Shown piece by piece: positions 8,358-54,287 of a DNA stretch of 64,000 bases. Each line of letters opens with the position of its first letter. Positions within the stretch are counted from its first letter, which is position 1. Made by a program: the position numbers and the translations under genes. A model generated the notes under the pieces. The model searched no databases and was not told the DNA's origin. It was given only the letters and a program-made list of their open reading frames with translations. Source of the stretch: Massilia rubra (GTDB lineage Bacteria > Pseudomonadota > Gammaproteobacteria > Burkholderiales > Burkholderiaceae_D); assembly GCF_011682065.1 (NCBI RefSeq), contig NZ_VUYU01000010.1, positions 62,001 through 126,000 of the forward strand. Direction: 5' to 3'.

Positions 8358-9086
8358 ATGCGTATCGGCTTCCGCTTTCGGGCCATTCCCTTCGTGGCGA
8401 CCGTGCTGCTGGTGGCCCTCGGCATCGTCCTGGGGCGCTGGCAGGATGGCCGCGCCGCCCAGAAAATCGCCCTGCAGCAGCAGATGACGGCGCGCGCCGG
8501 CGCCGCCCCGCAAGTCGTGGGCGCGGCCCTGCTGGCGGCGGCCGATGTCGAACTGCGCCCGGTCACGGTGACCGGCACCTTCGTGCGCGAATGGCCGCTG
8601 TTCTTGAACAACCGTCCGCAGGAAGGCAAGGCCGGCTTTTACCTGTTGATGCCGCTGCGCATCGACGGCAGCAACACCCATGTGCTGGTGGCGCGCGGCT
8701 GGCTGCCGCGCTACACCGGCCAGTTCGACCGCCTGCCCGAGTTCGATACGCCGGCCGGCACGGTGACGATTACCGGCATGGCGCGCGCCGGCATGGGCCA
8801 TGTGATGCAGCTCGGTACGGCGGCGCCGGTGGCGCCCAAGGCCATCCTGCAAAACCTGGCCCCGGACGAATTCGCCCAGGCCAGCGGCCTGACGGTGCAA
8901 CCGTTCTTTATCGAGCAAAGCGGCCCGGCGCCCGCCGGCGACAAGCTGGTGCGCAACTGGCCGGCTCCCTCCCTGAATGTGGAAAAACACCAGGGTTATG
9001 CATTTCAATGGTATGCGCTGGCGGTCATGGCGCTGCTCTTTTTCGTGATTACAGGATTTCGACGTGGAACAAAACAAAACGACTGA
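8358..9086 (+). CDS. SURF1 family cytochrome oxidase assembly protein
   Basis: Inner-membrane assembly factor thought to help haem a insertion into subunit I. The 242-residue sequence has helices at both ends (about 10-28 and 215-233) and the typical periplasmic motifs FLNNRPQEGKAGFYLLMPL, VARGWLPR and NVEKHQGYAFQWYALA. The ATG at 8358 fits the family N-terminus (FRFRAIPFVATVLLVALGIVLGRWQ). Its end overlaps the next gene by 23 bases. Confidence 0.93.
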   Translation: MRIGFRFRAIPFVATVLLVALGIVLGRWQDGRAAQKIALQQQMTARAGAAPQVVGAALLAAADVELRPVTVTGTFVREWPLFLNNRPQEGKAGFYLLMPLRIDGSNTHVLVARGWLPRYTGQFDRLPEFDTPAGTVTITGMARAGMGHVMQLGTAAPVAPKAILQNLAPDEFAQASGLTVQPFFIEQSGPAPAGDKLVRNWPAPSLNVEKHQGYAFQWYALAVMALLFFVITGFRRGTKQND

Positions 9087-42727: not shown

Positions 42728-43885
42728 TTATCCCAGCAGCGCCTCGACGAATTCGTCGGCGCTGAACGGTTGCAGGTCTTCGATTTTTTCGCCGACCCCG
42801 ATGAAGTACACGGGAATCGGGCGGGTGCGGGCAATCGCGGCCAGCACGCCGCCCTTGGCGGTGCCGTCGAGCTTGGTGATGACCAGGCCGGTCAGTTGCA
42901 GGGCGTCGTCGAAGGCCTTGACCTGGGCCAGCGCATTCTGGCCGGTGTTGCCGTCAATGACCAGCAGCACTTCGTGCGGGGCGCCATCCATGCCCTTGCC
43001 GATCACGCGCTTGATCTTTTTCAGTTCTTCCATCAGGTGCAGCTGGGTCGGCAGGCGGCCGGCCGTGTCGACCATGACCACGTCCATCTTGCGCGCCTTG
43101 CCCGACTGGACCGCGTCGAAGGCCACGGCGGCCGGGTCGCCCGACTCCTGGGCGATCACGGTGACGTTGTTGCGCTGGCCCCAGACCATCAATTGTTCGC
43201 GCGCGGCGGCGCGGAAGGTGTCGCCGGCGGCCAGCAGCACCGATTGCTCGTACTTCTGCATGTGCTTGGCGAGTTTGCCGATGGTGGTGGTCTTGCCGGC
43301 GCCGTTCACGCCCGCGATCATCATCACCAGCGGTTGGTGGCGGCCCAGTTCGAGCGGCTTGACCAGCGGGCGCAGCATGTCGGTCATGAGCACCTTCAGT
43401 GCCGCCTTCACGGCGGCGGCGTCGACCAGCTTGTCTTCCTTGACCTTGCGGCGCAGCTCGGTGAGCAGGTAATCGGTGGCGTCCATGCCGGCGTCGGACA
43501 TGAGCAGCGCCGCTTCGAGTTCCTCGTACAGGTCTTCGTCGATGCGCGCGCCGACGAACAGCAGGCTCAGGTTGCTGGAGGTCTTGGACAGGCCCGCTTT
43601 CAGGCGCGCCATCCAGGAACTCTTGCTGTCGGCGTCGTTGCCGAGGCGTTCGGCGGTTTCGGCGATCAGTTCGGTGCCGAAGGCCGGCACCGGCGGCGCC
43701 ACGAAGGTCGAGGTGGCGCCGTAGCGGCGCGTTGGCGCCGGGACGGGAGTGGCGGCGGGCGGCGACTCGGCAACGGCGGCGGCCACGGGCGTGACTGGCA
43801 CGGCTGGTGCGGGCGGAGAGGGAGCTGCGGGCGTTGGCGGCGGAAGATCGGGAGCGGGTGGTTTTTTCTTAAAAAAACTAAACAT
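42728..43885 (-). CDS. ftsY: Signal recognition particle receptor FtsY
   Basis: SRP-type GTPase that docks nascent membrane protein complexes at the inner membrane. The 385-residue protein has a short, Pro/Ala-rich N-terminal domain (about residues 8-60), the helical N domain, and the G domain with G1 GVNGAGKTTTIGKLA, G3 VDTAGRLPTQ, and the closing TKLDGTAKGG and FIGVGEKIEDL. The acidic A domain of the E. coli protein is replaced by the Pro-rich stretch. Confidence 0.97.
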   Translation of the reverse strand: MFSFFKKKPPAPDLPPPTPAAPSPPAPAVPVTPVAAAVAESPPAATPVPAPTRRYGATSTFVAPPVPAFGTELIAETAERLGNDADSKSSWMARLKAGLSKTSSNLSLLFVGARIDEDLYEELEAALLMSDAGMDATDYLLTELRRKVKEDKLVDAAAVKAALKVLMTDMLRPLVKPLELGRHQPLVMMIAGVNGAGKTTTIGKLAKHMQKYEQSVLLAAGDTFRAAAREQLMVWGQRNNVTVIAQESGDPAAVAFDAVQSGKARKMDVVMVDTAGRLPTQLHLMEELKKIKRVIGKGMDGAPHEVLLVIDGNTGQNALAQVKAFDDALQLTGLVITKLDGTAKGGVLAAIARTRPIPVYFIGVGEKIEDLQPFSADEFVEALLG

Positions 43886-43994
43886 GGGAATGTGGTGGAG
43901 GGCGCAGCATGCTGATGCCCGGCGGCGCCGGGCACGACGAAATCGATGCCGCGTATTTTACCAGAGCAGGGCGGGGTTTCCCCGGCCGGACTGC

Positions 43995-44948
43995 CTAACT
44001 CGCAACGGCCGTGTTTTGCGCCCGCCAGCGTTCCACCGCCGCATCGATATCGTGCAGGTCGAGCACCCGGTTCGGGCCGAGCTGGCGCCGCGCCAGCGCC
44101 GCGCAGCTGCCGCCGGCCCACACCTGCACCCGTTCGCCCAGCCGGCTTTGCAGCTCGATCACATTGTCGACCGCCGCGCGCGGCGACATCACGCTCGAAA
44201 ACGACAGCGCCACGATGTCGGCGCGCTGCACCCGCGCCGCTTCGACGATGTCGGCCAGCGGGGTCTGCACGCCCAGCGAAACGCAGTGCGCTCCTTCCAG
44301 CGCGAACAGGGCCTCGGCCATCAACAGGCCCAGTCCGTGGCGCTCCTGGGGCACGGTGGTGAGCAGGATGCGCGGGGTGGCGTCGCTCTGGCCCACCTGC
44401 TGGTTGGCCGAAAAGATGGCATTTCTCATCACGCTTTGCAGCAATTCTGCGAACAGGTGTTCTTCGAAGATGGCCAGGCCGCCGGCGGCCCAGGTTTCGC
44501 CGACCAGCGTGGTCAGGGGCGCCACCAGTTCCAGCACGAAGCGGCGCAGCCCCAGTTGCAGCAGGGACTGGGCCATTTTCTGGCGCAGCTCGTGCATCTG
44601 GTGCGCCTTGATCATGGCCAGGCACTGGCGCAGCACCGGGTCGTCGGCGTCGCCGGCGATCGAGCCGGCGCCGGACTTGCTGGCCATGTCGCTCAGCTCA
44701 TCGGTACTCAAATGCATGATCTTGCCGGGCCGGTAGCCCATGTCGAGCAGGCGCTTGACCACCCGCAGGCGCGCCACCTGGTCGAGCGGATACAGGCGCT
44801 CGCCGTTGGCGTCGCGCTGCGGCTGCGGAAAGTGATAGCGCCGTTCCCACACGCGCAGGGTTTCCTTGGGGATGCCGGTGTCCCGTTCCACGTCGCTGAT
44901 GCTGCTGAAAACGGCAGTGGTCGATGCTTGGCTCATTGTCGCATTCAT
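43995..44948 (-). CDS. MerR-type regulator with B12-binding domain (LitR/CarH-like)
   Basis: A 317-residue regulator: N-terminal MerR helix-turn-helix (SSISDVERDTGIPKETLRVW, then WERRYHFPQPQRD) and a C-terminal cobalamin-binding pair of domains. The four-helix domain has W153 followed after nine residues by E163-H164, and the Rossmann part has E202-x-H204-x-x-G207, the pattern of adenosyl-B12 photoreceptors in which the second His binds cobalt. In such proteins dark DNA binding is lost in light. It is divergent from the lipid operon at 45239, its probable target. Confidence 0.88.
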   Translation of the reverse strand: MNATMSQASTTAVFSSISDVERDTGIPKETLRVWERRYHFPQPQRDANGERLYPLDQVARLRVVKRLLDMGYRPGKIMHLSTDELSDMASKSGAGSIAGDADDPVLRQCLAMIKAHQMHELRQKMAQSLLQLGLRRFVLELVAPLTTLVGETWAAGGLAIFEEHLFAELLQSVMRNAIFSANQQVGQSDATPRILLTTVPQERHGLGLLMAEALFALEGAHCVSLGVQTPLADIVEAARVQRADIVALSFSSVMSPRAAVDNVIELQSRLGERVQVWAGGSCAALARRQLGPNRVLDLHDIDAAVERWRAQNTAVAS

Positions 44949-44956
44949 GGTTTGTT

Positions 44957-44971
44957 CAGGACATCGTCCTG
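44957..44971. promoter_or_regulatory. Palindrome upstream of the MerR/B12 regulator gene
   Basis: CAGGAC-ATC-GTCCTG, a perfect inverted repeat with a three-base centre, lies nine bases before the regulator start codon. The spacing equals that of the operators at 45141 and 45203, but the half-sites differ. It may be an autoregulatory site or an RNA hairpin in the leader. Confidence 0.4.
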
Positions 44972-45140
44972 ATTGTAAGTTGAAATGATATACAGAAAAC
45001 TACTCTTTGTATCAGCTTGTTTTCATGCCGTGACTCAGGCCCGACATGATGCCATGCCTCGCAATGTTGCGGCTTCGTACGAAATCGCATTTCTTGAATC
45101 CAATTTTCTACCCGCTGCGTATAAATCCATACTAACTCAG

Positions 45141-45217
45141 TTTGTCATGGACAAACAGTTGACATCGCTCATTATTTGCCGGATTATCCGTCAGGTGGCG
45201 AGTTTGTCCTAGACAAA
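45141..45217 (+). promoter_or_regulatory. Promoter with twin TTTGTC-N3-GACAAA operators
   Basis: Two palindromes with the same arms, TTTGTC-ATG-GACAAA (45141-45155) and TTTGTC-CTA-GACAAA (45203-45217), flank a promoter: TTGACA at 45159-45164 and GATTAT at 45182-45187, 17 bases apart. The first site touches the -35 box; the second covers about +10 to +24. Binding by the divergent MerR/B12 regulator at both would close the promoter. The A/T-rich region 44985-45140 has only a frame I consider spurious. Confidence 0.7.
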
Positions 45218-45238
45218 ACAAGAAAACAGGTGGATGTG

Positions 45239-46537
45239 ATGAAGATAGCAGTGATTGGGGCGGGGATTTCCGGTTTGTCGTGTGCGTACCGGCTTGTCCA
45301 TGGCGGGGCGGAGGTGACCCTGTATGAGGCGGGGACTTACTTTGGCGGCCACAGCAACACCGTGGACGTGACCCTGGACGGCGTCACGCACGGCGTGGAC
45401 ACCGGCTTTTTGGTGTTCAACGAGCGCACCTACCCGCAGCTGATCGCCCTGTTCGCCGAGCTTGGCGTGGAAACGGCGCCGAGCGACATGTCGTTCTCGG
45501 TCAAGCTGCCGCTCGGGCCGGAAGCCGGCGCGCGCGTGCTGGAATGGGCCGGCAGCAATCTCGACACCCTGTTCGCCCAGCGCGGCAACCTGCTGCGCCC
45601 GCGCTTTTTGCGCATGGTGCGCGACATCCTGCGCTTCAACCGCCAGGCCACCAGCCTGGCCACGGCCAATCGCATGCCGGCCATGTCGCTCGGCGAGTTC
45701 CTCGACCAGCACCATTACAGCGAGCAGTTCCGCGCCTGGTACCTGCTGCCGATGGCCGCCTGCATCTGGTCGTGTCCATCCGAGCAGATGCTGGCCTTCC
45801 CGGTCGCCACTTTCATCCGCTTCTGCCACAACCACGGCCTGCTGCAGGTGAGCGACCGCCCGCAGTGGCATACGGTGCGCGGCGGCTCGCGCAATTACGT
45901 CGACAAGCTGCTGGCCGCGATTGCCCAGCGCCGCCTCGGCACGCCGGTAACAAGCGTCACGCGCAACCCGGCCGGCGGCGCGCGTTCGGTGCGGGTCGAT
46001 ACGGCCAATGACAGCGAACAGTTCGACCATGTCGTCATGGCCTGCCACAGCGACCAGTCGCTGGCGCTGCTGGCCGACGCGCGCGACGACGAACGCTCGG
46101 TCCTGTCGGCGGTGCGCTACCAGCCCAACCGCGCCGTGCTGCACACCGACGCGAGCTGCCTGCCGCGCCGCCGCAAGGCCTGGTCGGCCTGGAATTACCA
46201 GAGCACGGCGTCGGCCACGCCGCAGGTGTGCGTGCACTACCTGCTCAACCAGTTGCAGCCGCTGCCCTTCAAGACGCCGCTGATCGTCTCGCTCAACCCG
46301 ATCGACGAGCCGAATCGGGCGCGCATCATCAAGTCCTTCGACTATGCGCACCCGGTGTTCGACGACGCCGCCGTGGCCGCGCAAGGGCGCCTGGCAAGCT
46401 TCCAGGGCCGCCAGAACACCTGGTTCGCCGGCGCCTGGACCGGCTACGGCTTCCATGAAGATGGCCTCAAGTCGGGCCTGGCCGCCGCCGCCGCCTTGAT
46501 GCGCCTGATGCAGGGCACGCAGCATGCGGCGGCCTGA
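45239..46537 (+). CDS. FAD-dependent oxidoreductase (amine-oxidase type)
   Basis: Flavin enzyme of 432 residues. The dinucleotide fold is at the N-terminus (KIAVIGAGISGLSCAYRLVHGG with the acidic end of strand two in VTLYEAG), and the C-terminus has the FAD-binding end WFAGAWTGYGFHEDGLKSGL. It matches the NAD(P)/FAD-binding proteins encoded with DUF1365 and Cfa-like genes, where a role in fatty acid modification is suspected. AGGTGG precedes the ATG. First gene of the operon; it overlaps the next by 14 bases. Confidence 0.9.
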   Translation: MKIAVIGAGISGLSCAYRLVHGGAEVTLYEAGTYFGGHSNTVDVTLDGVTHGVDTGFLVFNERTYPQLIALFAELGVETAPSDMSFSVKLPLGPEAGARVLEWAGSNLDTLFAQRGNLLRPRFLRMVRDILRFNRQATSLATANRMPAMSLGEFLDQHHYSEQFRAWYLLPMAACIWSCPSEQMLAFPVATFIRFCHNHGLLQVSDRPQWHTVRGGSRNYVDKLLAAIAQRRLGTPVTSVTRNPAGGARSVRVDTANDSEQFDHVVMACHSDQSLALLADARDDERSVLSAVRYQPNRAVLHTDASCLPRRRKAWSAWNYQSTASATPQVCVHYLLNQLQPLPFKTPLIVSLNPIDEPNRARIIKSFDYAHPVFDDAAVAAQGRLASFQGRQNTWFAGAWTGYGFHEDGLKSGLAAAAALMRLMQGTQHAAA

Positions 46538-47330
46538 ACCCGCGTCCGAGCCGCGCGCGCAGCTGTGCTTCGGCCAGGTGCGCCACACGCGCCTGCGACC
46601 CGTCTTCAACGCCTTCGCCTACGCCACGTATTACGTGCGCCTGCCGCTGCGCGCGATGGCCGCGCAGGGCTTCGGCTGCGCGCTGTTCTCGCGCAACCGC
46701 TTCAATTTGCTGTCGTTTTCCGACGCCGACCATGGCGACGGCAAGGCCCCGCTGGTCGACTGGATCGACGCCCTGCTGCGCCAGGAAGGCATTCTCGACG
46801 CCGATGGCGAAGTCTGGCTGCAAACCATGCCGCGCGTGCTCGGCTTCGTGTTCAATCCGGTCTCGTTCTGGTTTTGCCACCGGCGCGACGGCGCCCTGCG
46901 CGCGCTGGTGTGCGACGTGCGCAATACCTTCGGCGAACGCCACTTCTATGTGCTCGATACCGGCGCCGACATCGCCAACGGCCAGGAACTGCACGCGCGC
47001 AAGGTGTTCCACGTCTCGCCGTTCTGCGAAGTGCAGGGCGGCTACCGCTTCCGCTTCACCCACCTGCTGCGCATGAACGAGGGCCAGGCCCTTGAGAGCA
47101 CGCTGGCCTGCATCGACTACGACGACGCCGACGGCGCGCTGTTGCGAACGAGCCTGTCCGGCAGCGCCGCGCCGATCACCAGCGCCAGCGTGGCGCGCGC
47201 CTTCTTCGGCTTTCCGCTGATGACGGCCGGCGTGGTGGCGCGCATCCATATTCAAGCGCTGCGCCTGTGGCTGCGGCGCGTTCCCTTCTTTTCCAAACCG
47301 ACTCCACCCCAACATAAGGTAACCCGATGA
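46524..47330 (+). CDS. DUF1365 family protein
   Basis: A 268-residue protein of DUF1365. Typical segments are GQVRHTRLRPVFNAFAYATYY near the start, GFVFNPVSFWFCHRRDG, EVRNTFGERH-like (DVRNTFGERHFYVL), KVFHVSPFCEVQGGYRFRF and the late YFGFPL-like AFFGFPLMTAGVVARIHIQAL. The activity is unknown; it always travels with the FAD enzyme and the Cfa-like methyltransferase. It overlaps both neighbours. Confidence 0.92.
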   Translation: MRRPEPASEPRAQLCFGQVRHTRLRPVFNAFAYATYYVRLPLRAMAAQGFGCALFSRNRFNLLSFSDADHGDGKAPLVDWIDALLRQEGILDADGEVWLQTMPRVLGFVFNPVSFWFCHRRDGALRALVCDVRNTFGERHFYVLDTGADIANGQELHARKVFHVSPFCEVQGGYRFRFTHLLRMNEGQALESTLACIDYDDADGALLRTSLSGSAAPITSASVARAFFGFPLMTAGVVARIHIQALRLWLRRVPFFSKPTPPQHKVTR

Positions 47331-48559
47331 GCTCCCAATCCCTGCCATCGCTTGTTCCGGCCGCGCCGCGCCTGCGCGCCGCCACGCCCGCGCCGTCGTC
47401 CGCCAAAGTCATTCTCAAGCTGCTCGAGAACCTGAAACACGGCGCGCTGACCTTGATTACGCCTGACGGCGCGCAGCGTCACTACGGCGACGCGTCGGTG
47501 CCGGTATTGCTGGAGCTGAATAACTGGAACTGCTTTTCGGCGGCCCTGCGTTCGGGCGACATCGGCTTTGCCGAAACCTATATCGACGGCGACTGGCAGA
47601 CCAACAACCTGACCGGCCTGATCGCGCTGCTGGCGCGCAACCGCGCCGCCATTGAAACGCTGGTTTACGGCAGCTGGTGGGGCAGCCTGGCGTACCGCAT
47701 CAAGCACCTGTTGAACCGCAACAGCAAGTCCGGCAGCCGCAAGAACATCCACGCGCACTACGACATCGGCAACGCGTTCTACAGATTGTGGCTCGACCCG
47801 TCGATGACCTATTCGAGCGCCTTGTATACAGAGGCCAGTGGGCGCGACCTGGAACAGGCGCAGAAGGCCAAGTACCGCCGCATCCTGCACCAGCTGGAGG
47901 TTTCGCCCGGCCAGAAGGTGCTGGAAATCGGTTGCGGCTGGGGAGGCTTCGCCGAACTGGCCGCGCGCGACGGCGAGGTGCACGTCACCGGACTGACCCT
48001 GTCGGAGCAGCAGCTGGCCTACGCCAAAGCGCGCCTGGAACAAGCCGGCCTGGCGGAGAAAACCGACCTGCGCCTGTGCGACTACCGCGACAGCGACGGC
48101 CAGTACGATGCGATCGCCTCGATCGAAATGTTCGAAGCGGTGGGCGAGAGCTACTGGCCGAGCTACTTCGAGTGCATCGCGCGCAACCTCAAGCCGGGCG
48201 GGCGCGCCTGCATCCAGACCATCGTGATCGCCGACGAACTGTTCGAGCGCTATCGCAAGGGTACGGACTTCATCCAGCAGTTCATCTTCCCGGGCGGGAT
48301 GCTGCCGTCGCCATCGGTGTTCGAGCGCATGGCCTTCGAACATGGCTTGAGCGTGACCAGCCAACACCGTTTCGGCATCGATTACGCCGACACCCTGGTT
48401 GAATGGCGCCAGGCGTTCCACGCGCGCCTGGACGAGGTGCGCGCGCAGGGTTTCGACGAGCGCTTCATTCGCACCTGGGAGTTCTACCTGTGCTACTGCG
48501 AGGCCGCGTTCCGTGAAAAGAACACCGACGTCATGCACTTCACCCTGACGAAAGCCTGA
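47327..48559 (+). CDS. Cyclopropane-fatty-acyl-phospholipid synthase family methyltransferase
   Basis: SAM-dependent methyltransferase of 410 residues acting on unsaturated acyl chains in the membrane. The SAM motif is VLEIGCGWGGFAELAAR; other family segments are NIHAHYDIGNAFYRLWLD, SMTYSSALY, ASIEMFEAVGESYWPSYF and EFYLCYCEAAFREKNTDV. In this operon context it could make cyclopropane or methyl/furan fatty acids; the product cannot be told from the sequence. It overlaps DUF1365 by four bases. Confidence 0.92.
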   Translation: MSSQSLPSLVPAAPRLRAATPAPSSAKVILKLLENLKHGALTLITPDGAQRHYGDASVPVLLELNNWNCFSAALRSGDIGFAETYIDGDWQTNNLTGLIALLARNRAAIETLVYGSWWGSLAYRIKHLLNRNSKSGSRKNIHAHYDIGNAFYRLWLDPSMTYSSALYTEASGRDLEQAQKAKYRRILHQLEVSPGQKVLEIGCGWGGFAELAARDGEVHVTGLTLSEQQLAYAKARLEQAGLAEKTDLRLCDYRDSDGQYDAIASIEMFEAVGESYWPSYFECIARNLKPGGRACIQTIVIADELFERYRKGTDFIQQFIFPGGMLPSPSVFERMAFEHGLSVTSQHRFGIDYADTLVEWRQAFHARLDEVRAQGFDERFIRTWEFYLCYCEAAFREKNTDVMHFTLTKA

Positions 48560-48560
48560 G

Positions 48561-49103
48561 ATGCGGCGCCGCCAGCTCCTGCTGTCCGCCTGTGCGCTGA
48601 TGGTCGTCAAGTCCGCCGGCGCCGCGCCGGGCCATATCGAAGAACACCTGGCGCAGGCGCGCGTGGCCGGCAAAGGCACCTTTACCTGGTTCGGGCTGGC
48701 GATCTACCAGGCCGAACTGTGGGTGGGCGAGAAGGGCTACCGGCCCGACGCTCCCGCCGCCGCGCCGTTTGTGCTCGACCTGCGCTACGCGCGCAAGCTC
48801 GATGGCGTCAAGATCGCCGAGGCCAGCGCCGAGCAGATGGAAAAAACCGGCGCCGGCACGCCCGCCCAACGCGCCCAGTGGCTGGCCACCATGAAGACCA
48901 TCTTCCCGGATGTAAAGGAAGGCACGCATATCAGCGGCGTGTTCCTGCCCGGCGCCGGCGCACGGTTCTACCTCGATGGCAAGGCGCTGGCCACGGTGCC
49001 CGACCAGCAATTCGCGCGCGCGTTTTTCGGCATCTGGTTCGATCCCGCCACCAGCGCGCGCGCGCTGCGCACCGCACTGCTCAAAGACGCCGCCCCGCGA
49101 TGA
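48561..49103 (+). CDS. Chalcone-isomerase-like exported protein
   Basis: A 180-residue protein with a signal peptide (ending KSAGAA, about residue 22) and a chalcone-isomerase-like fold recognisable from GKGTFTWFGLAIYQAELWV, LDLRYARKLDG and FFGIWFDPATSARALRTALL. Bacterial members of this fold bind fatty acids rather than flavonoids as far as known. It begins one base after the methyltransferase gene and overlaps the MFS gene by four bases. Confidence 0.85.
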   Translation: MRRRQLLLSACALMVVKSAGAAPGHIEEHLAQARVAGKGTFTWFGLAIYQAELWVGEKGYRPDAPAAAPFVLDLRYARKLDGVKIAEASAEQMEKTGAGTPAQRAQWLATMKTIFPDVKEGTHISGVFLPGAGARFYLDGKALATVPDQQFARAFFGIWFDPATSARALRTALLKDAAPR

Positions 49104-50335
49104 GCCGCCTGTCGCTGGCGAAGCTGCTCGCGTACGGCCTGTTCGGCCTGCCGCTGGCGATGGTCGCGTTGCCGATCTATGTTTACCTGCCCCAGTTTTA
49201 CGCCGAGCGCGCCGGCCTGTCGCTGGCGCTGATCGGCGCCGTGCTGCTGGCCGCGCGCGTGGCCGCCGCCTTTATCGACCCGCTGCTCGGCTGGTGGATC
49301 GAGCGCGGGCATGGCGCTTACGCGCGCTACGTGGCGCTGGCGCTGCCGCTGCTGCTGGCCGGTTTTGTGGCGCTGTTCCATCCGCCGGCGCTGGGCGGGC
49401 TGGCGACCATGGCCTGGTTTCTCGGCACGCTGATGCTGGTCTACCTGGGCTTCAGCATCGCCACCATCGCGCACCAGAGCTGGGGCGCGGCGCTCACGCA
49501 AGCCCCGCTCGAGCGCGCGCGCGTGACCGGCGTGCGCGAAGCTTGCGGCCTGGCGGGCGTGGTGCTGGCGGCCGCAGTCACCGGCGCGGCCGGCTACGAC
49601 GCATTGAGTCTCGCCTTCGCCGCAACGCTGGCGGCGGGCGGCGCGCTGCTGCTGGCCCGTTCGCCGCGCCCGCTGGTCAAGGCGGCGCTGGAAACGCGGC
49701 CCGGCTGGCGCGCCATGGCCGCGCCGTTTCGGGAAGCGCCGTTCCGTTCCCTGTTCGCGGTGTTGATCGTCAATGGCGTCGCCTCGTCGATTCCGGCCAC
49801 GCTGTTTCTGTTTTTCACGGCCGACCGGCTCAAGCTGGGGGCCATGTCGTCCCTGTTCCTGATCATTTACTTCGCTGCGGCGGCCTGCTCGATGCCGCTG
49901 TGGATAGCCGCCGCCGCCCGCTTCGGCGAAGCGCGCGCGTGGGCGGCCGGCATGCTGCTGGCGGCCGCCGTTTTTGTCTGGGCGTTCGGGCTGGGCGCGG
50001 GCGCGAGCATCGCCTTCGGCGTCATCTGCCTGCTGTCAGGGCTGGCGCTGGGGGCCGACCTGGCGCTGCCGCCAGCGCTGCTGGCCGGCGTGATCGCCGG
50101 CGCCGGTCACGCGGGCGGACGCGAAGCGGCTTACTTCGGCGTGTGGAACTGGGGCGTGCAAATGACCCTGGCGCTGGCCGCCGGCATCGCCCTGCCGCTG
50201 CTGGCCTGGCTCGGCTACGTGCCCGGCGCGGGCGGCGGCACCACCGCGCTGGCGGCGGCTTACGCGCTGCTGCCGTGCGCCCTCAAATTGCTGGCCGCCG
50301 CCATGTTGTGGCGCGCGCCGCTGCGTCACTGTTAA
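49100..50335 (+). CDS. MFS transporter (GPH-like)
   Basis: Twelve-helix permease of 411 residues. The opening KLLAYGLFGLPLAMVALPIYVYLPQFY and the loop DPLLGWWIERGHG are those of glycoside-pentoside-hexuronide type carriers. Its substrate is unknown; position in the lipid operon suggests a lipid-linked or sterol-like compound. The ATG at 49100 overlaps the preceding stop codon. Confidence 0.85.
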   Translation: MSRLSLAKLLAYGLFGLPLAMVALPIYVYLPQFYAERAGLSLALIGAVLLAARVAAAFIDPLLGWWIERGHGAYARYVALALPLLLAGFVALFHPPALGGLATMAWFLGTLMLVYLGFSIATIAHQSWGAALTQAPLERARVTGVREACGLAGVVLAAAVTGAAGYDALSLAFAATLAAGGALLLARSPRPLVKAALETRPGWRAMAAPFREAPFRSLFAVLIVNGVASSIPATLFLFFTADRLKLGAMSSLFLIIYFAAAACSMPLWIAAAARFGEARAWAAGMLLAAAVFVWAFGLGAGASIAFGVICLLSGLALGADLALPPALLAGVIAGAGHAGGREAAYFGVWNWGVQMTLALAAGIALPLLAWLGYVPGAGGGTTALAAAYALLPCALKLLAAAMLWRAPLRHC

Positions 50336-50352
50336 CCACCAAAGGATAGCCC

Positions 50353-50901
50353 ATGAAACTCCACCAGATTTTTGCCGCCGGCGCCCTGGCGCTGGCCATT
50401 GCCGGCTGCAGCACGCCCACGCCCGAAACCTATGCAAAACAGACTCCGGCGCTCGACATCACCAAGTACTTCAACGGCACCCTCGACGCGCACGGCATGT
50501 TCCAGGACCGCTCCGGCGAAGTCATCAAGCGTTTCGTGGTGCAGATGCGCTGCACCTGGAATGGCGACACGGGCGTACTCGATGAAGATTTTGTCTACTC
50601 GGACGGCACGCGCCAGAAGCGCATCTGGACCCTGACCCGCACCGGGCCGGGAACGTTTACGGCGACTGCGGCGGACGTCGTCGGCAGCGCGCGCGGCACC
50701 GTGTCGGGCAATGCGCTGCGCTGGCAGTACGTGCTGGCGCTGCCGGTCGACGGCAAGGTGATTAACATGGACATGGACGACTGGATGTTCCTGATCGACG
50801 ACAAGGTCATGTTGAACCGCACGGCGATGAGCAAGTTCGGCGTGAACCTGGGCAGCGTGACCTTGTCGTTCACCAAGCGCACGGGCGCGGCGCCGCAATG
50901 A
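50353..50901 (+). CDS. DUF3833 lipoprotein
   Basis: A 182-residue protein with a lipobox (AIAGC, Cys at about residue 19) and the DUF3833 body, seen in YFNGTLDAHGMFQDRSGEV, FVVQMRCTWNGD and LDEDFVYSDGTRQKRIW. It is probably a periplasmic, membrane-anchored lipid-binding protein, but no function is proven. AAAGGA precedes the ATG. It overlaps the SDR gene by four bases. Confidence 0.9.
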   Translation: MKLHQIFAAGALALAIAGCSTPTPETYAKQTPALDITKYFNGTLDAHGMFQDRSGEVIKRFVVQMRCTWNGDTGVLDEDFVYSDGTRQKRIWTLTRTGPGTFTATAADVVGSARGTVSGNALRWQYVLALPVDGKVINMDMDDWMFLIDDKVMLNRTAMSKFGVNLGSVTLSFTKRTGAAPQ

Positions 50902-51665
50902 ACCCGCGCATCAAGCAGTGGCGCGGGCAGCGCGTGTGGATGATCGGCGCCTCGACCGGAATCGGCGAGGCGGCGGCGCACCTGCTGCTCGACCTGGGGG
51001 CGCGCGTGGCGTTTTCCGCGCGCAGCGCCGACAAGCTGGAACAGACGGTGGCGGGCGAGCCGCGCGCGCTGGCGCTGGCGCTCGACGTGACCGACCGGTC
51101 CAGCGTGGACGAGGCCTGCCAGCGCATCGTGGCCGAGTGGGGCGGCGTCGACCTGGTGCTGATCGTCGCCGGCGGCTACAACGAGATGCGGGCCGACGCG
51201 ATCGACCTGGCGGCGGCCAACCGGATGATCGACCTGAATCTGCGCGGCGCCTTCAACTGCCTGGACGTGGCGCTGCCAGTCTTGCTCAGGCAGGGCGCCG
51301 GCGGGATCGGCATTGTCGCGTCGGTGGCCGGTTTCGGCGGGCTGCCCAAGGCGCTGGTGTACGGCCCGACCAAGGCGGCGCTGATCAATCTGTCGGAATC
51401 GCTGTACCTGGACTTGCGCTCGCGCGGGATCGCGGTGTACCAGATTAATCCGGGGTTTGTCGACACCCCGCTCACGGCCGGTAACGACTTCAAGATGCCG
51501 GCGTTGATGAGCGCCGCCGATGCCGCGTATGCGATGGTGGACGGGATCGAGCGTGGCCACTTTCATATCCATTTTCCGAAGCGCTTCACCAACAGCATGC
51601 GCCTGGCGCGCCTGCTGCCGTACCGCCTGTATTTCTGGCTGATCCACAAGGTGACCGGATTATGA
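50898..51665 (+). CDS. Short-chain dehydrogenase/reductase
   Basis: NAD(P)-dependent oxidoreductase of 255 residues. The cofactor motif is IGASTGIGEAAAHLL (TGxxxGxG type), the catalytic set is NLRGAFN for the Asn, VASVAGFGG for the Ser and YGPTKAAL for Tyr-x3-Lys. The C-terminal KRFTNSMRLARLLPYRLYFWL is hydrophobic, suggesting membrane association. Its substrate is probably a modified acyl chain, by context only. Confidence 0.92.
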   Translation: MNPRIKQWRGQRVWMIGASTGIGEAAAHLLLDLGARVAFSARSADKLEQTVAGEPRALALALDVTDRSSVDEACQRIVAEWGGVDLVLIVAGGYNEMRADAIDLAAANRMIDLNLRGAFNCLDVALPVLLRQGAGGIGIVASVAGFGGLPKALVYGPTKAALINLSESLYLDLRSRGIAVYQINPGFVDTPLTAGNDFKMPALMSAADAAYAMVDGIERGHFHIHFPKRFTNSMRLARLLPYRLYFWLIHKVTGL

Positions 51666-52096
51666 ACCGCGCGCCGGAGCTGGCACGGCTGGTGCGCTTT
51701 TACGAAGGCATCGAACGCGCGTCGCTGCGCGCCCAGATCGAGCGGATCTACGCGCCCGATGCGCAGTTCAAGGATCCGTTCAACGAGGTGTGCGGGGCCG
51801 GGCCGATCGTCGCCATCTTCGAGCATATGTTCGAGCAGGTCGCGCAGCCGCGGTTTGTGGTGACGTCAACCGTGCTGCAGGGCGACGAGGCCTTTTTGAC
51901 GTGGGAGTTCCTGTTTCGGATGAAACGCTTTTCCACGGCGCCGCAATGCATTCGCGGCGCGACCCGGATCCGCTTTGATGCGAGCGGGGCAGTGATGATG
52001 CATCGGGATTATTGGGATGCCGCCGAGGAGCTTTACGAGAAGCTGCCGATACTCGGAAGCGTGATGCGCTGGCTCAAGCGGGCAGCAAATAAATAG
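51662..52096 (+). CDS. NTF2-like (SnoaL-type) protein
   Basis: A 144-residue protein of the nuclear-transport-factor-2-like fold: an N-terminal helix pair (LARLVRFYEGIERASLRAQIERIYAPDA), then the curved sheet with FKDPFNEV and RIRFDASGAVMMHRDYWDAAEELY. Members are small-molecule enzymes or binding proteins. It is the last gene of the operon, overlapping the SDR gene by four bases. Confidence 0.88.
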   Translation: MNRAPELARLVRFYEGIERASLRAQIERIYAPDAQFKDPFNEVCGAGPIVAIFEHMFEQVAQPRFVVTSTVLQGDEAFLTWEFLFRMKRFSTAPQCIRGATRIRFDASGAVMMHRDYWDAAEELYEKLPILGSVMRWLKRAANK

Positions 52097-52198
52097 GCTG
52101 TATGGACTGACCCACATATGCATCAATCCGGCGCAAGATTAACTAGGCTTTTATCGAAAAAGGGTATAAATTATTACAAAACTATGACAGGAGGCAGT

Positions 52199-52426
52199 GT
52201 GAAAAGCCCAGACAATTTCAGCTTGTTGATTTCGCCGGAGACAATTCATGTGGCAGGGTCGATGTGGATACGCAATGTCATCGGTTTGGCGTTTATCGCC
52301 ACCGTGGCATGTTTCTTTACAGCACCGGTAACCGAAGCCAAGAGTGCTTATGACCGCCCGCTGCCTCTGCCAGCCGAGCTTGGTCTTGAACTGCTGCCGC
52401 AGGCGCAGTTGCTTAGTTCGCAGTAA
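52199..52426 (+). CDS. Small exported protein of unknown function
   Basis: A 75-residue protein starting at a GTG with AGGAGG placed four bases upstream, which decides the start over an earlier ATG. The middle has a membrane or signal segment (WIRNVIGLAFIATVACFFTAP, then a likely cleavage after EAKSA), followed by a short Leu/Pro-rich tail (PLPLPAELGLELLPQAQLL). No family is recognised. It is 102 bases after the lipid operon. Confidence 0.55.
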   Translation: MKSPDNFSLLISPETIHVAGSMWIRNVIGLAFIATVACFFTAPVTEAKSAYDRPLPLPAELGLELLPQAQLLSSQ

Positions 52427-52471
52427 TTCCCAATTCCCCGGCCTGCCACGGTCGTCGTTACACAGATACAG

Positions 52472-52550
52472 CGTCGTTCCCGCGACGGCGGGAACCCAAG
52501 TTTCCAGAAGTTGCTAAGAAACTTGGGTTCCCGCCGTCGCGGGAACGACG
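52472..52550. repeat. REP-like perfect inverted repeat
   Basis: Two 33-base arms (52472-52504 and 52518-52550) are perfectly complementary around a 13-base centre. Each arm also contains its own hairpin TTCCCGC-gacg-GCGGGAA. The structure sits between convergent genes and may act as a bidirectional terminator or a dispersed REP/BIME element. Confidence 0.85.
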
Positions 52551-52574
52551 GTTTTGCGGGTAGCGCTTCCTTGA

Positions 52575-54287
52575 TTACTTGATCGCTTTCGCCGCCTTTG
52601 TCGCTTCCGCCGTCTTGCGTATCGTCTCCAAGGTCGCATTCGGGGTAATCAAATTCCCGTCGTAACGCAACTCGATCACCGCCGGCAAGGCATTGTCCCG
52701 GGTGTGCGCCAGCGCGCGCGCCAGGGCCGGGCCGAATTCCGCCGTGGCATTGACTACCTCGCCATGCGCGCCATACGCCTTGGCCAGTTCCGCAAAGTCC
52801 GGGTTATGCAATCCGGTGCCCGATACGCGGCCCGGATAATCCCTTTCCTGGTGCATGCGGATGGTGCCGAACATGCCATTATTGAAAACAATAATAATCA
52901 CGCCGGCCTTGTATTGCACCGCGGTCGCCAGTTCTTGTCCATTCATCATGAATTCGCCATCGCCGGCAAACGTCACCACCGTGCGTGAGGGATCGACAAT
53001 CTTGGCCGCGATGCCGGACGGCACGCTGTAACCCATCGCGCCATTGGTCGGCGCCAGCTGGGTGCGCATGCCGCCATACCGATAAAAGCGGTGCGCCCAC
53101 GAGGCGTAATTGCCGGCGCCATTCGTGATAATCGTATCGCGCGGAACTTGCGCCATCAGTTCCTGCACCACTTGCCACAGGTCGAGCGGGGCCGCGCCAT
53201 CCTTGAAAATCGGCGGCTGTTCCTGATAAGCGGCCAGCTCGGCCTTCGCCTCGGCGACCGTGCCGCGCCAGGCGGACGGGTCAACCGGCTCCATCGCGGC
53301 CAGCATGGCGCAGGCTTGCGCGGCGCCGCTGTTGATCATCAGCTCGGCCTGGTACACGCTGCCCAGTTCCTCGGCGTCCGCATGGAAATGCACCAGGCGC
53401 TGGCTTGGCACGGGCGAGGCCAGCAGGGTGTAGCCGCCGGTGGTCATTTCGCCCAGGCGCGGGCCGATGGCGATGACCAGGTCGGCGTTTTTGACGCGCG
53501 CGGCCAGCTTCGGATTGATGCCGATCCCGACATCACCTATATAGTGAGGGTGGGCGTTGTCGAGCAGGTCCTGGAAGCGGAAGGTGCAGCCGACCGGCAG
53601 CGCATTGGCTTCGGCAAACCGTTGCAGGTCGGCGCAGGCCTGGGCGTTCCAGCTGGCGCCGCCAAGCAGCACCACCGGACGTGTTGCTGCGGCCAGCATC
53701 TCGCGCAGGGTGGCGATCTGGGCGGCGGACGGCGACGCCTGCACCGGCTGGTAGCGGCGGGTGTCGGCCACGGCGGCGGTGTCGATCAGCATGTCTTCCG
53801 GCAGCGCCAGCACCACCGGGCCGGGACGGCCGCTGGTGGCGACCTGGAAGGCGCGCGCGATGTATTCGGGAATGCGGTCGGCGCGGTCGATCTGGGTGAC
53901 CCACTTGGCCATCTGGCCGTACATGCGGCGGTAGTCGATCTCCTGGAACGCTTCGCGGTCGATGAAATCGTTGCCGACCTGGCCGATGAACAGGATCATC
54001 GGGGTCGAGTCCTGGTAGGCCGTGTGCACGCCGATCGAGGCATTGGTGGCGCCGGGGCCGCGCGTGACGAAGCAGATGCCGGGTTTGCCGGTCAGCTTGC
54101 CATAGGCTTCGGCCATGAACGCGGCGCCGCCTTCCTGGCGGTTGATGATGAAGCGGATATCGGAGTCGTGCAGGGCGTCGAGCACGTCGAGGTAGCTTTC
54201 GCCGGGAACCCCGAAGGCGGTGTCGACGCCGTGAATGTTGAGCGCATCGACCAGAATCTGGCCGCCACTGCGGGAAGGGTGCGTCAT
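52575..54287 (-). CDS. Thiamine diphosphate-dependent enzyme, acetolactate synthase-like
   Basis: A 570-residue enzyme with the three-domain layout of the acetolactate synthase group. The catalytic Glu lies in INRQEGGAAFMAEAYGK (about residue 52), and the cofactor motif is GDGEFMMNGQELAT ending in NN (about residues 440-470). No small regulatory subunit gene is adjacent, so it is likely a related decarboxylase or ligase with another substrate instead of the IlvB of branched-chain synthesis. It stands alone on the minus strand. Confidence 0.85.
   Translation of the reverse strand: MTHPSRSGGQILVDALNIHGVDTAFGVPGESYLDVLDALHDSDIRFIINRQEGGAAFMAEAYGKLTGKPGICFVTRGPGATNASIGVHTAYQDSTPMILFIGQVGNDFIDREAFQEIDYRRMYGQMAKWVTQIDRADRIPEYIARAFQVATSGRPGPVVLALPEDMLIDTAAVADTRRYQPVQASPSAAQIATLREMLAAATRPVVLLGGASWNAQACADLQRFAEANALPVGCTFRFQDLLDNAHPHYIGDVGIGINPKLAARVKNADLVIAIGPRLGEMTTGGYTLLASPVPSQRLVHFHADAEELGSVYQAELMINSGAAQACAMLAAMEPVDPSAWRGTVAEAKAELAAYQEQPPIFKDGAAPLDLWQVVQELMAQVPRDTIITNGAGNYASWAHRFYRYGGMRTQLAPTNGAMGYSVPSGIAAKIVDPSRTVVTFAGDGEFMMNGQELATAVQYKAGVIIIVFNNGMFGTIRMHQERDYPGRVSGTGLHNPDFAELAKAYGAHGEVVNATAEFGPALARALAHTRDNALPAVIELRYDGNLITPNATLETIRKTAEATKAAKAIK

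Follow-up and report, generated by a model that had tools for sequence, protein, structure and literature searches.

The 64,000-nt stretch of Massilia rubra DNA analyzed here, hereafter called the window (contig C10:62001-126000 of a 7.57-Mb genome), carries a litR-like regulatory gene that diverges from eight tightly packed genes with a predicted role in lipid modification. We consider it fairly probable that this arrangement represents a LitR/CarH-type dark repressor in control of a furan fatty acid operon. The case is strong for two components of this reading: the pairing of the regulator with its operators and the identity of the operon. Control by light is plausible rather than established, because the residue equivalent to His132 of TtCarH, the CarH protein of Thermus thermophilus, is Ala154 in the window protein and no examined relative has a histidine at this position. 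The nearest named relatives of the source organism are Massilia species, and the regulator is 93% identical in M. aquatica and M. mucilaginosa.

The regulatory gene (43995..44948, minus strand) and the packed genes (45239..52096, plus strand) are separated by a region that includes two exact TTTGTC-N3-GACAAA palindromes, which are predicted to serve as operators. Operator P, on the litR side (TTTGTC-ATG-GACAAA, 45141..45155), lies just upstream of the -35 element of the predicted sigma-70-like operon promoter (TTGACA-N17-GATTAT, 45159..45187, plus strand). Operator D, on the operon side (TTTGTC-CTA-GACAAA, 45203..45217), lies downstream from the -10 element and 21 bp before the start of the first operon gene, ufaD. 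The two palindromes are 62 bp apart from start to start, or about six helical turns. A preliminary description of this DNA had proposed both the divergent layout and the twin palindromes at the promoter, and each is present as described. A promoter scan returned 3 promoter-like sites in the region compared with 0.5 expected, and TTGACA is exact in 30 of the 34 rows in which the window was aligned with the 33 ufaD-linked loci introduced below. A weak third site with 3 mismatches (44951-44965) directly precedes the litR start, near which some relatives carry a better copy, with 1 mismatch in L021 and 2 in both L020 and L088.

The whole genome contains three copies of the exact palindrome, two of them in the litR-ufaD gap, and an independent-base estimate using the composition of the window gives a chance expectation of 0.08. 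A chance origin for the exact pair was rejected on these numbers. When up to 3 mismatches are allowed, the window contains 15 sites versus 11.75 expected, which is not above chance, and weight is therefore given to the exact pair alone. Across the whole genome, 11 places match with up to 1 mismatch, as many as for a reversed control pattern. Chance is the appropriate explanation for one-mismatch sites in this genome and for the majority of exact sites that lie away from litR. Because mismatches drown the signal, conservation among relatives is a stronger argument than such counts.

The third exact palindrome (C41:171324; L007 5325) is located between a LysR-like gene, judged by eye, and a gene for malate synthase, and a counterpart with the same spacer exists in 1 of 16 other genus genomes (G181). 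Exact sites had been sought before photolyase, folE, or carotenoid genes, as the preliminary description had suggested, with a negative result; folE and crt genes were not located, crt genes were not searched for directly, and eight one-mismatch places were left unannotated. The same description had remarked on the absence of a photolyase gene. The genome does have a single one outside the window, and the 500 bp preceding it contain no match to the palindrome with up to 3 mismatches. Two adjacent SQS_PSY matches elsewhere in the genome presumably correspond to the hopanoid HpnC/HpnD pair, which they resemble.

To assess conservation, a set of LitR loci was formed from the best 80 of 118 regulator relatives found in one scan of named genomes. 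The ufaD gene adjoins litR in 33 of these loci. Site pairs spaced 62-63 bp apart with no more than 5 mismatches in total are present in 59 of the 80 (17 with ufaD and 42 without), compared with a total of 8 mismatches for the best pair after one base shuffle per locus. Of the 33 ufaD-linked loci, 31 have an exact operon-side site in the 60 bp preceding ufaD; the site of L061 deviates at 1 position and that of L047 at 3. In the loci without adjacent ufaD it is the litR-side copy that is nearly constant, with 44 of 47 loci deviating from the consensus at 1-3 positions, and only 8 of the 47 carry an exact operon-side copy. We infer that one site serves the operon and the other litR itself, and lineage could explain part of this pattern, as the two groups of loci differ in genus. 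In L032 and L094, other genes of the operon set stand beside litR even though ufaD does not. Conservation in related loci thus supports the earlier proposal that a CarH/LitR-like repressor is the probable partner of these operators.

Among 17 genus genomes, 26 of the 33 exact sites fall between litR and ufaD, and the 7 found elsewhere compare with 6 matches to the reversed control. The system therefore has the appearance of a switch that acts locally, not of a wide regulon, and the palindrome is not the widespread, unrelated sequence that had been considered as a competing case. On a larger scale, the twin pattern was found in 40 of 294 family genomes, compared with 1 for the reversed control pattern. 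Five of the 40 (G033, G086, G105, G287, and G057) have the twin only away from a LitR match, and G015 has one such place beside a true one. LitR matches are known for 195 of the family genomes; G287 is outside that set, and its site resembles those of G033, G086, and G105. Open reading frames were inspected at five of the six places away from LitR (G287 was left out), and four of these lie in frames of 555-604 codons and that of G057 in a 194-codon frame, an open frame alone being no proof of coding. Several further twin matches, in genomes outside the 195, are not tied to a LitR gene. Among 19 distant LitR relatives with 31-53% identity, 13 have a site with 0-1 mismatch within 500 bp upstream.

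Some operators were also encountered in other genetic contexts. In L164, an exact operator (8763-8777) is located 11 bp before folE2, and in three other genomes with the same genus code (L157-L159) it is ufaD that stands in the place of folE2. Operators precede genes for methyl-accepting chemotaxis proteins in L160 (9471-9547) and L168 (9976); the former is an exact twin pair with 62-bp spacing, and no LitR was found in the fetched 19 kb. In L019 (Massilia frigida), an internal deletion at about 9022-9017 of the locus, on the operon strand, fuses the front of ufaD to the back of ufaM and eliminates ufaO, and litR and both operators are kept. Judging by contig coordinates, genome G181, which has no UfaO, is probably the L019 genome.

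The first three genes of the operon correspond by family and order to ufaD-ufaO-ufaM of Rhodopseudomonas and Rhodobacter, and they are identified by protein family, gene order, size, and annotation in the literature. The proteins UfaM, UfaD, and UfaO, the last of which carries DUF1365, are reported to convert vaccenate chains to a methylated furan fatty acid, with O2 supplying the furan oxygen (Lemke et al., PMC7380195). In Rhodopseudomonas palustris, the consecutive genes RPA2571-2570-2569 (ufaD, ufaO, and ufaM) are described as sufficient for production of the furan fatty acid (FuFA) 9M5-FuFA (PMC7380195). This trio has the same three functions and order as the window genes, a likeness drawn by description rather than by alignment, to which the window adds five genes and LitR. 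The window ufaD-like gene (45239..46537, plus strand) is predicted to encode an acyl desaturase dependent on flavin adenine dinucleotide (FAD), with Pfam Amino_oxidase/NAD_binding_8 matches and the order and annotation of RSP1091/RPA2571. It is followed by a ufaO-like gene (46524..47330, plus strand) for a DUF1365 protein (Pfam, E 2.9e-79), the proposed O2-dependent furan-forming enzyme, and by a ufaM-like gene (47327..48559, plus strand) for an S-adenosylmethionine-dependent methyltransferase of the CMAS family (Pfam; active-site positions).

Because the CMAS family includes the enzymes that make cyclopropane fatty acids, the identity of the methylated product must be weighed. In a rival reading, the methyltransferase would make a cyclopropane fatty acid and the operon would be a general stress-lipid operon. 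The best NCBIfam matches of the protein are indeed cyclopropane synthases, all of them well below cut-off, and two class-level relatives keep one residue typical of Cfa each (Cys in L214 and His in L221). At three positions occupied by Cys, His, and His in E. coli Cfa (6bqc), the window enzyme itself has Ser, Ala, and Gln, whereas another CMAS protein of the source genome retains all three Cfa residues. Such residues of Cfa bind bicarbonate, and we take the native E. coli numbers of the three positions to be 139, 240, and 266. Of 73 CMAS rows from the window and the loci, 55 could be read by pattern and 18 were unread, and each of the 55 has Ala or Ser directly after FE. In addition, the DUF1365 and FAD genes, which are collinear, correspond to ufaO and ufaD. 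These features make a cyclopropane product very improbable. A UfaM-like methyltransferase whose eventual product is a furan fatty acid is suggested instead, and the operon output is likely a furan rather than a cyclopropane lipid because the gene families and order match ufaD-ufaO-ufaM and the methyltransferase lacks the cyclopropane-synthase residues. Of the two products originally named, cyclopropane and furan fatty acids, only the latter agrees with the gene order and the active site, and the gene families bear out the more general claim of lipid modification.

The order ufaD-ufaO-ufaM is collinear in 36 of 40 class-level loci, the exceptions being L205 (on a short contig), L215, L228, and L231. 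These loci, all from DUF1365-positive genomes, are 20 of the 21 top-ranking ones other than that of the source genome and 20 picked from lower ranks; a DUF1365 match occurs in 106 of 369 class-level genomes, the source genome included. Many residues of the window UfaO (46524-47330) are invariant across 20 homologs. A model of this protein (mean pLDDT 71.6, a middling value) matched no PDB fold at an E value of 0.001 or lower.

The regulator is 317 amino acids long and has MerR_1, B12-binding_2, and B12-binding domains that all exceed their Pfam cut-offs, B12-binding_2 only just (24.9 versus 23). It aligns with TtCarH across residues 12-302 and would share with it a MerR domain, a four-helix bundle, and a Rossmann B12 domain, as expected for a class I LitR/CarH-like protein. 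In a Foldseek search with a model of the regulator (mean pLDDT 85.5), the best PDB matches were to TtCarH at 27-28% identity. The cobalamin-binding domain compares with TtCarH at TMt 0.75-0.80, and most full-length TtCarH chains fit more poorly (TMt 0.52-0.60), which is expected if the domains are placed differently. The genome also encodes a BtuR/CobA-type adenosyltransferase for the supply of adenosylcobalamin (AdoCbl).

The preliminary description had called the cobalamin-photoreceptor residues of the regulator intact, and this is true for most of them. The Wx9EH motif (W153 and E163-H164) and the ExHxxG motif with its lower axial histidine (E202-R-H204-G-L-G) are both present, as in TtCarH. 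All three Wx9EH residues are invariant in 120 of 120 best homologs and 80 of 80 loci, and H204 is kept in 120 of 120, 76 of 80, and all 33 ufaD-linked loci. In the four loci that have lost this histidine to Asp or Gln (L040, L046, L072, and L074, from Duganella, Rugamonas, Massilia, and Pseudoduganella), ufaD is absent beside litR. Of the four SignatureFinder motifs (GxxW, EH, GxxH, and GxxxP), three are present, as GETW, EH, and GVQTP. The claim does not hold for two features: the regulator has Ala154 for His132 of TtCarH, the upper cobalt ligand in the light state, and it has Gln for the Gly of GxxH, which reads Q-E-R-H.

Among the 195 family genomes, the regulator was detected in 68 and UfaO in 114 (both at E 1e-30), and 53 genomes have both; the two are within 6 kb of each other in 43 of the 53. 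This co-occurrence has a Fisher p of 6e-5, not corrected for kinship. At the class level, a B12-type LitR with Wx9EH is present in the fetched stretch of 11 of the 40 loci.

Similar genes elsewhere are controlled by sigma and anti-sigma factors. The RpoE-ChrR singlet-oxygen regulon, known from Rhodobacter sphaeroides (RSP1087-1091 and RSP2144) and Pseudomonas syringae, comprises a similar FAD enzyme, RSP1090/DUF1365, UfaM, short-chain dehydrogenase (SDR), and lipoprotein. RSP2144 is UfaM, annotated cfaS, and the P. syringae homolog of RSP1088 is annotated as a lipoprotein. RSP1087, RSP1091, phrB, and RSP2144 are listed in the conserved core of this regulon (PMC5507510). In contrast to R. sphaeroides, the family of the window shows no ChrR (TIGR02451) over the cut-off in any of 195 genomes, and the source genome itself reaches 26.5 bits compared with a cut-off of 124.5; the sigma factor was not searched for there. 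On a plasmid of Burkholderia anthina, ufaD-O-M-type genes stand behind a sigma-70-family/anti-sigma pair, and thus sigma control does exist nearby. A relative of this sigma factor is present in 6 of the 40 class-level loci.

Several observations weigh against the proposal that a light-sensing repressor of the CarH type controls the operon. In 47 of the 80 LitR loci ufaD is not beside litR, the litR-side site is missing in 16 of the 33 ufaD-linked loci (15 of them Janthinobacterium), and no operator lies nearby in 6 of the 19 distant LitR relatives. Moreover, 61 of the 195 family genomes encode UfaO without such a LitR and 15 show the reverse, and so neither the regulator nor UfaO needs the other. 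ChrR-like matches below the cut-off in 57 of the 195 genomes also leave room for a diverged anti-sigma factor. Although the CarH equivalog NF052513 is the best NCBIfam match of the regulator, its score of 111 bits is far below the 400 cut-off. The operators of TtCarH and BmCarH are tandem 11-bp direct repeats, whereas the window operator is palindromic like those of typical MerR proteins; CarH operators are described as plastic between species (PMC8156234, PMC9304148). Histidine at the His132 position, found in many CarH proteins but variable among proven B12 photoreceptors (PMC11796333), is present in none of 120 proteins, 80 loci, 19 family-sample rows, and 15 class-sample rows, where the class sample has 16 rows with one gap, the row sets partly overlap, and some distant rows do not have the whole motif. 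Last, TtCarH carrying H132A was mostly still tetrameric in light in a 2023 study, whereas an earlier report had described disassembly (PMC10442372).

The loss of the His132 equivalent, which is Ala in the window and never His in the examined rows, fits a sensor for which photolysis is not the main signal. The regulator might bind cobalamin and report cobalamin supply, or the redox or oxygen state of cobalt, rather than light. A furan pathway that requires O2 could be switched by oxygen or B12 status, and the UfaD product is reported to appear only in aerobic cells (PMC7380195). We nevertheless regard this alternative as unlikely for three reasons. The Wx9EH motif, which caps the adenosyl group and is described as a CarH hallmark (PMC9304148, PMC8156234), is invariant in close relatives. 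The operator found ahead of ufaD also precedes folE2 in L164, and folE of Pseudomonas mendocina is reported to be weakly light-induced, by 1.6-3.3-fold (PMC9758184). Finally, CtMerR has Arg at the His132 position, and both it and two other proteins, all non-His there, are reported to be light-responsive, with a Glu that moves in the light structure of CtMerR (PMC11796333).

Light could also reach the regulator through a partner protein, in the manner of a class II LitR with a short light-oxygen-voltage (LOV) protein, in which case the B12 domains would be a mere scaffold. PmlR2 of P. mendocina is described as working in this way in a related system (PMC9758184). However, class II LitR proteins do not have the second B12-binding domain, whereas both domains of the window regulator exceed their Pfam cut-offs, and the axial histidine is kept in all 33 ufaD-linked loci. 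Judged by the domains and residues of the regulator, signaling through a partner protein is very improbable.

The P. mendocina system is also a precedent for light control. PmlR1/PmlR2-PmSB-LOV exerts the same LitR-family control over an FAD oxidoreductase, an SDR, and ufaM, and ufaM was reported to be induced 25-33-fold by light in this LitR-controlled gene region (PMC9758184). The Cfa homolog VC1122 of Vibrio cholerae is likewise reported to be raised in blue light (PMC5241685). Light control of ufaM-type genes by a LitR relative is therefore already known. Together with the RpoE-ChrR core regulon, the P. mendocina region supports the link, drawn in the preliminary description, to light- or singlet-oxygen-responsive gene sets of other organisms. 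What sets the window system apart from that of P. mendocina is a LitR of the full-length B12 type, the palindromic form of the operator, and the presence of a whole operon. In P. mendocina the LitR proteins do not have the full B12 unit, a LOV protein is the sensor, the operator is TGTACA-N12-TGTACA rather than TTTGTC-N3-GACAAA, and phrB is part of the region (PMC9758184).

None of the papers listed in literature searches that covered a part of what is published describes the combination of a full B12-type LitR, palindromic twin operators, the absence of a light-state histidine, and a whole ufa operon. Among the listed papers there was likewise none tying furan lipids to B12/MerR photoreceptors, or Massilia-group genera to LitR/CarH, which does not prove that no such report exists. 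A close counterpart was encountered on plasmid pAZKH of Azoarcus sp. KH32C (L192; AZKH_RS26025-RS25985), where a MerR gene is divergent from eight genes of the same families in the same order, annotated by family names only, and the intervening gap contains operator copies, one exact and one with 1 mismatch. In contrast to the window unit, that of Azoarcus belongs to another order, and its plasmid has been typed as mobilizable, as would be consistent with horizontal transfer of the regulator-operator-operon unit.

The remaining genes of the packed set, all on the plus strand and assigned by Pfam, extend the resemblance to the R. sphaeroides cluster. A gene for a chalcone-isomerase-like protein (Chalcone_3, 48561..49103) is followed by those for an MFS_2 transporter of 411 amino acids (49100..50335), near in size to RSP1089 (402 amino acids), and a DUF3833 protein of 182 amino acids (50353..50901), near in size to RSP1088 (186 amino acids). 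The SDR of 255 amino acids (50898..51665) is a counterpart of RSP1087 (245 amino acids) by family and size, and a SnoaL_2/NTF2-like protein (51662..52096) is encoded by the last gene of the set. The gaps between the eight genes are -14, -4, +1, -4, +17, -4, and -4 bp. No cobalamin riboswitch or other Rfam element was found at gathering score in 43500-52600.

If the LitR/CarH-type repressor operates as proposed, the AdoCbl-bound regulator would occupy both operators in the dark and thereby shut off the operon promoter as well as its own divergent gene. Dark repression of this kind at an overlapping promoter is known for TtCarH and is expected alike for the window regulator, whose gene stands beside lipid genes rather than carotenoid genes. 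Light would cleave the Co-C bond and release the repressor. Because the CarH His132 position is occupied by Ala, release would need to proceed by a route other than bis-His ligation, for example by a move of the Wx9EH Glu as reported for CtMerR. Then UfaM, UfaD, and UfaO would in turn methylate, desaturate, and oxidize the acyl chains of existing phospholipids, and the resulting methylated furan fatty acid would protect the membrane in light and oxygen.

A broader proposal can be advanced more tentatively, and we lean slightly against it at present. These regulators may constitute a proteobacterial branch of B12 photoreceptors without a bis-His light state, in which a CarH-fold repressor acts on palindromic twin operators and a different ligand or domain movement signals AdoCbl photolysis. 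Such a branch would replace sigma/anti-sigma (ChrR) control of furan lipids, with a single protein both sensing light directly and setting the furan content of the membrane.

Should these proposals prove correct, furan fatty acids would gain a direct B12-based switch, and similar protective lipid genes would be wired to three inputs, namely RpoE-ChrR, LOV-LitR, and B12-LitR. The regulators would be natural CarH relatives without the light-state histidine and hence useful for studying B12-photoreceptor signaling, and a compact palindromic operator and promoter would be on offer. The UfaO family in this group also supplies many homologs of a DUF1365 enzyme whose cofactor is reported as unknown (PMC7380195).

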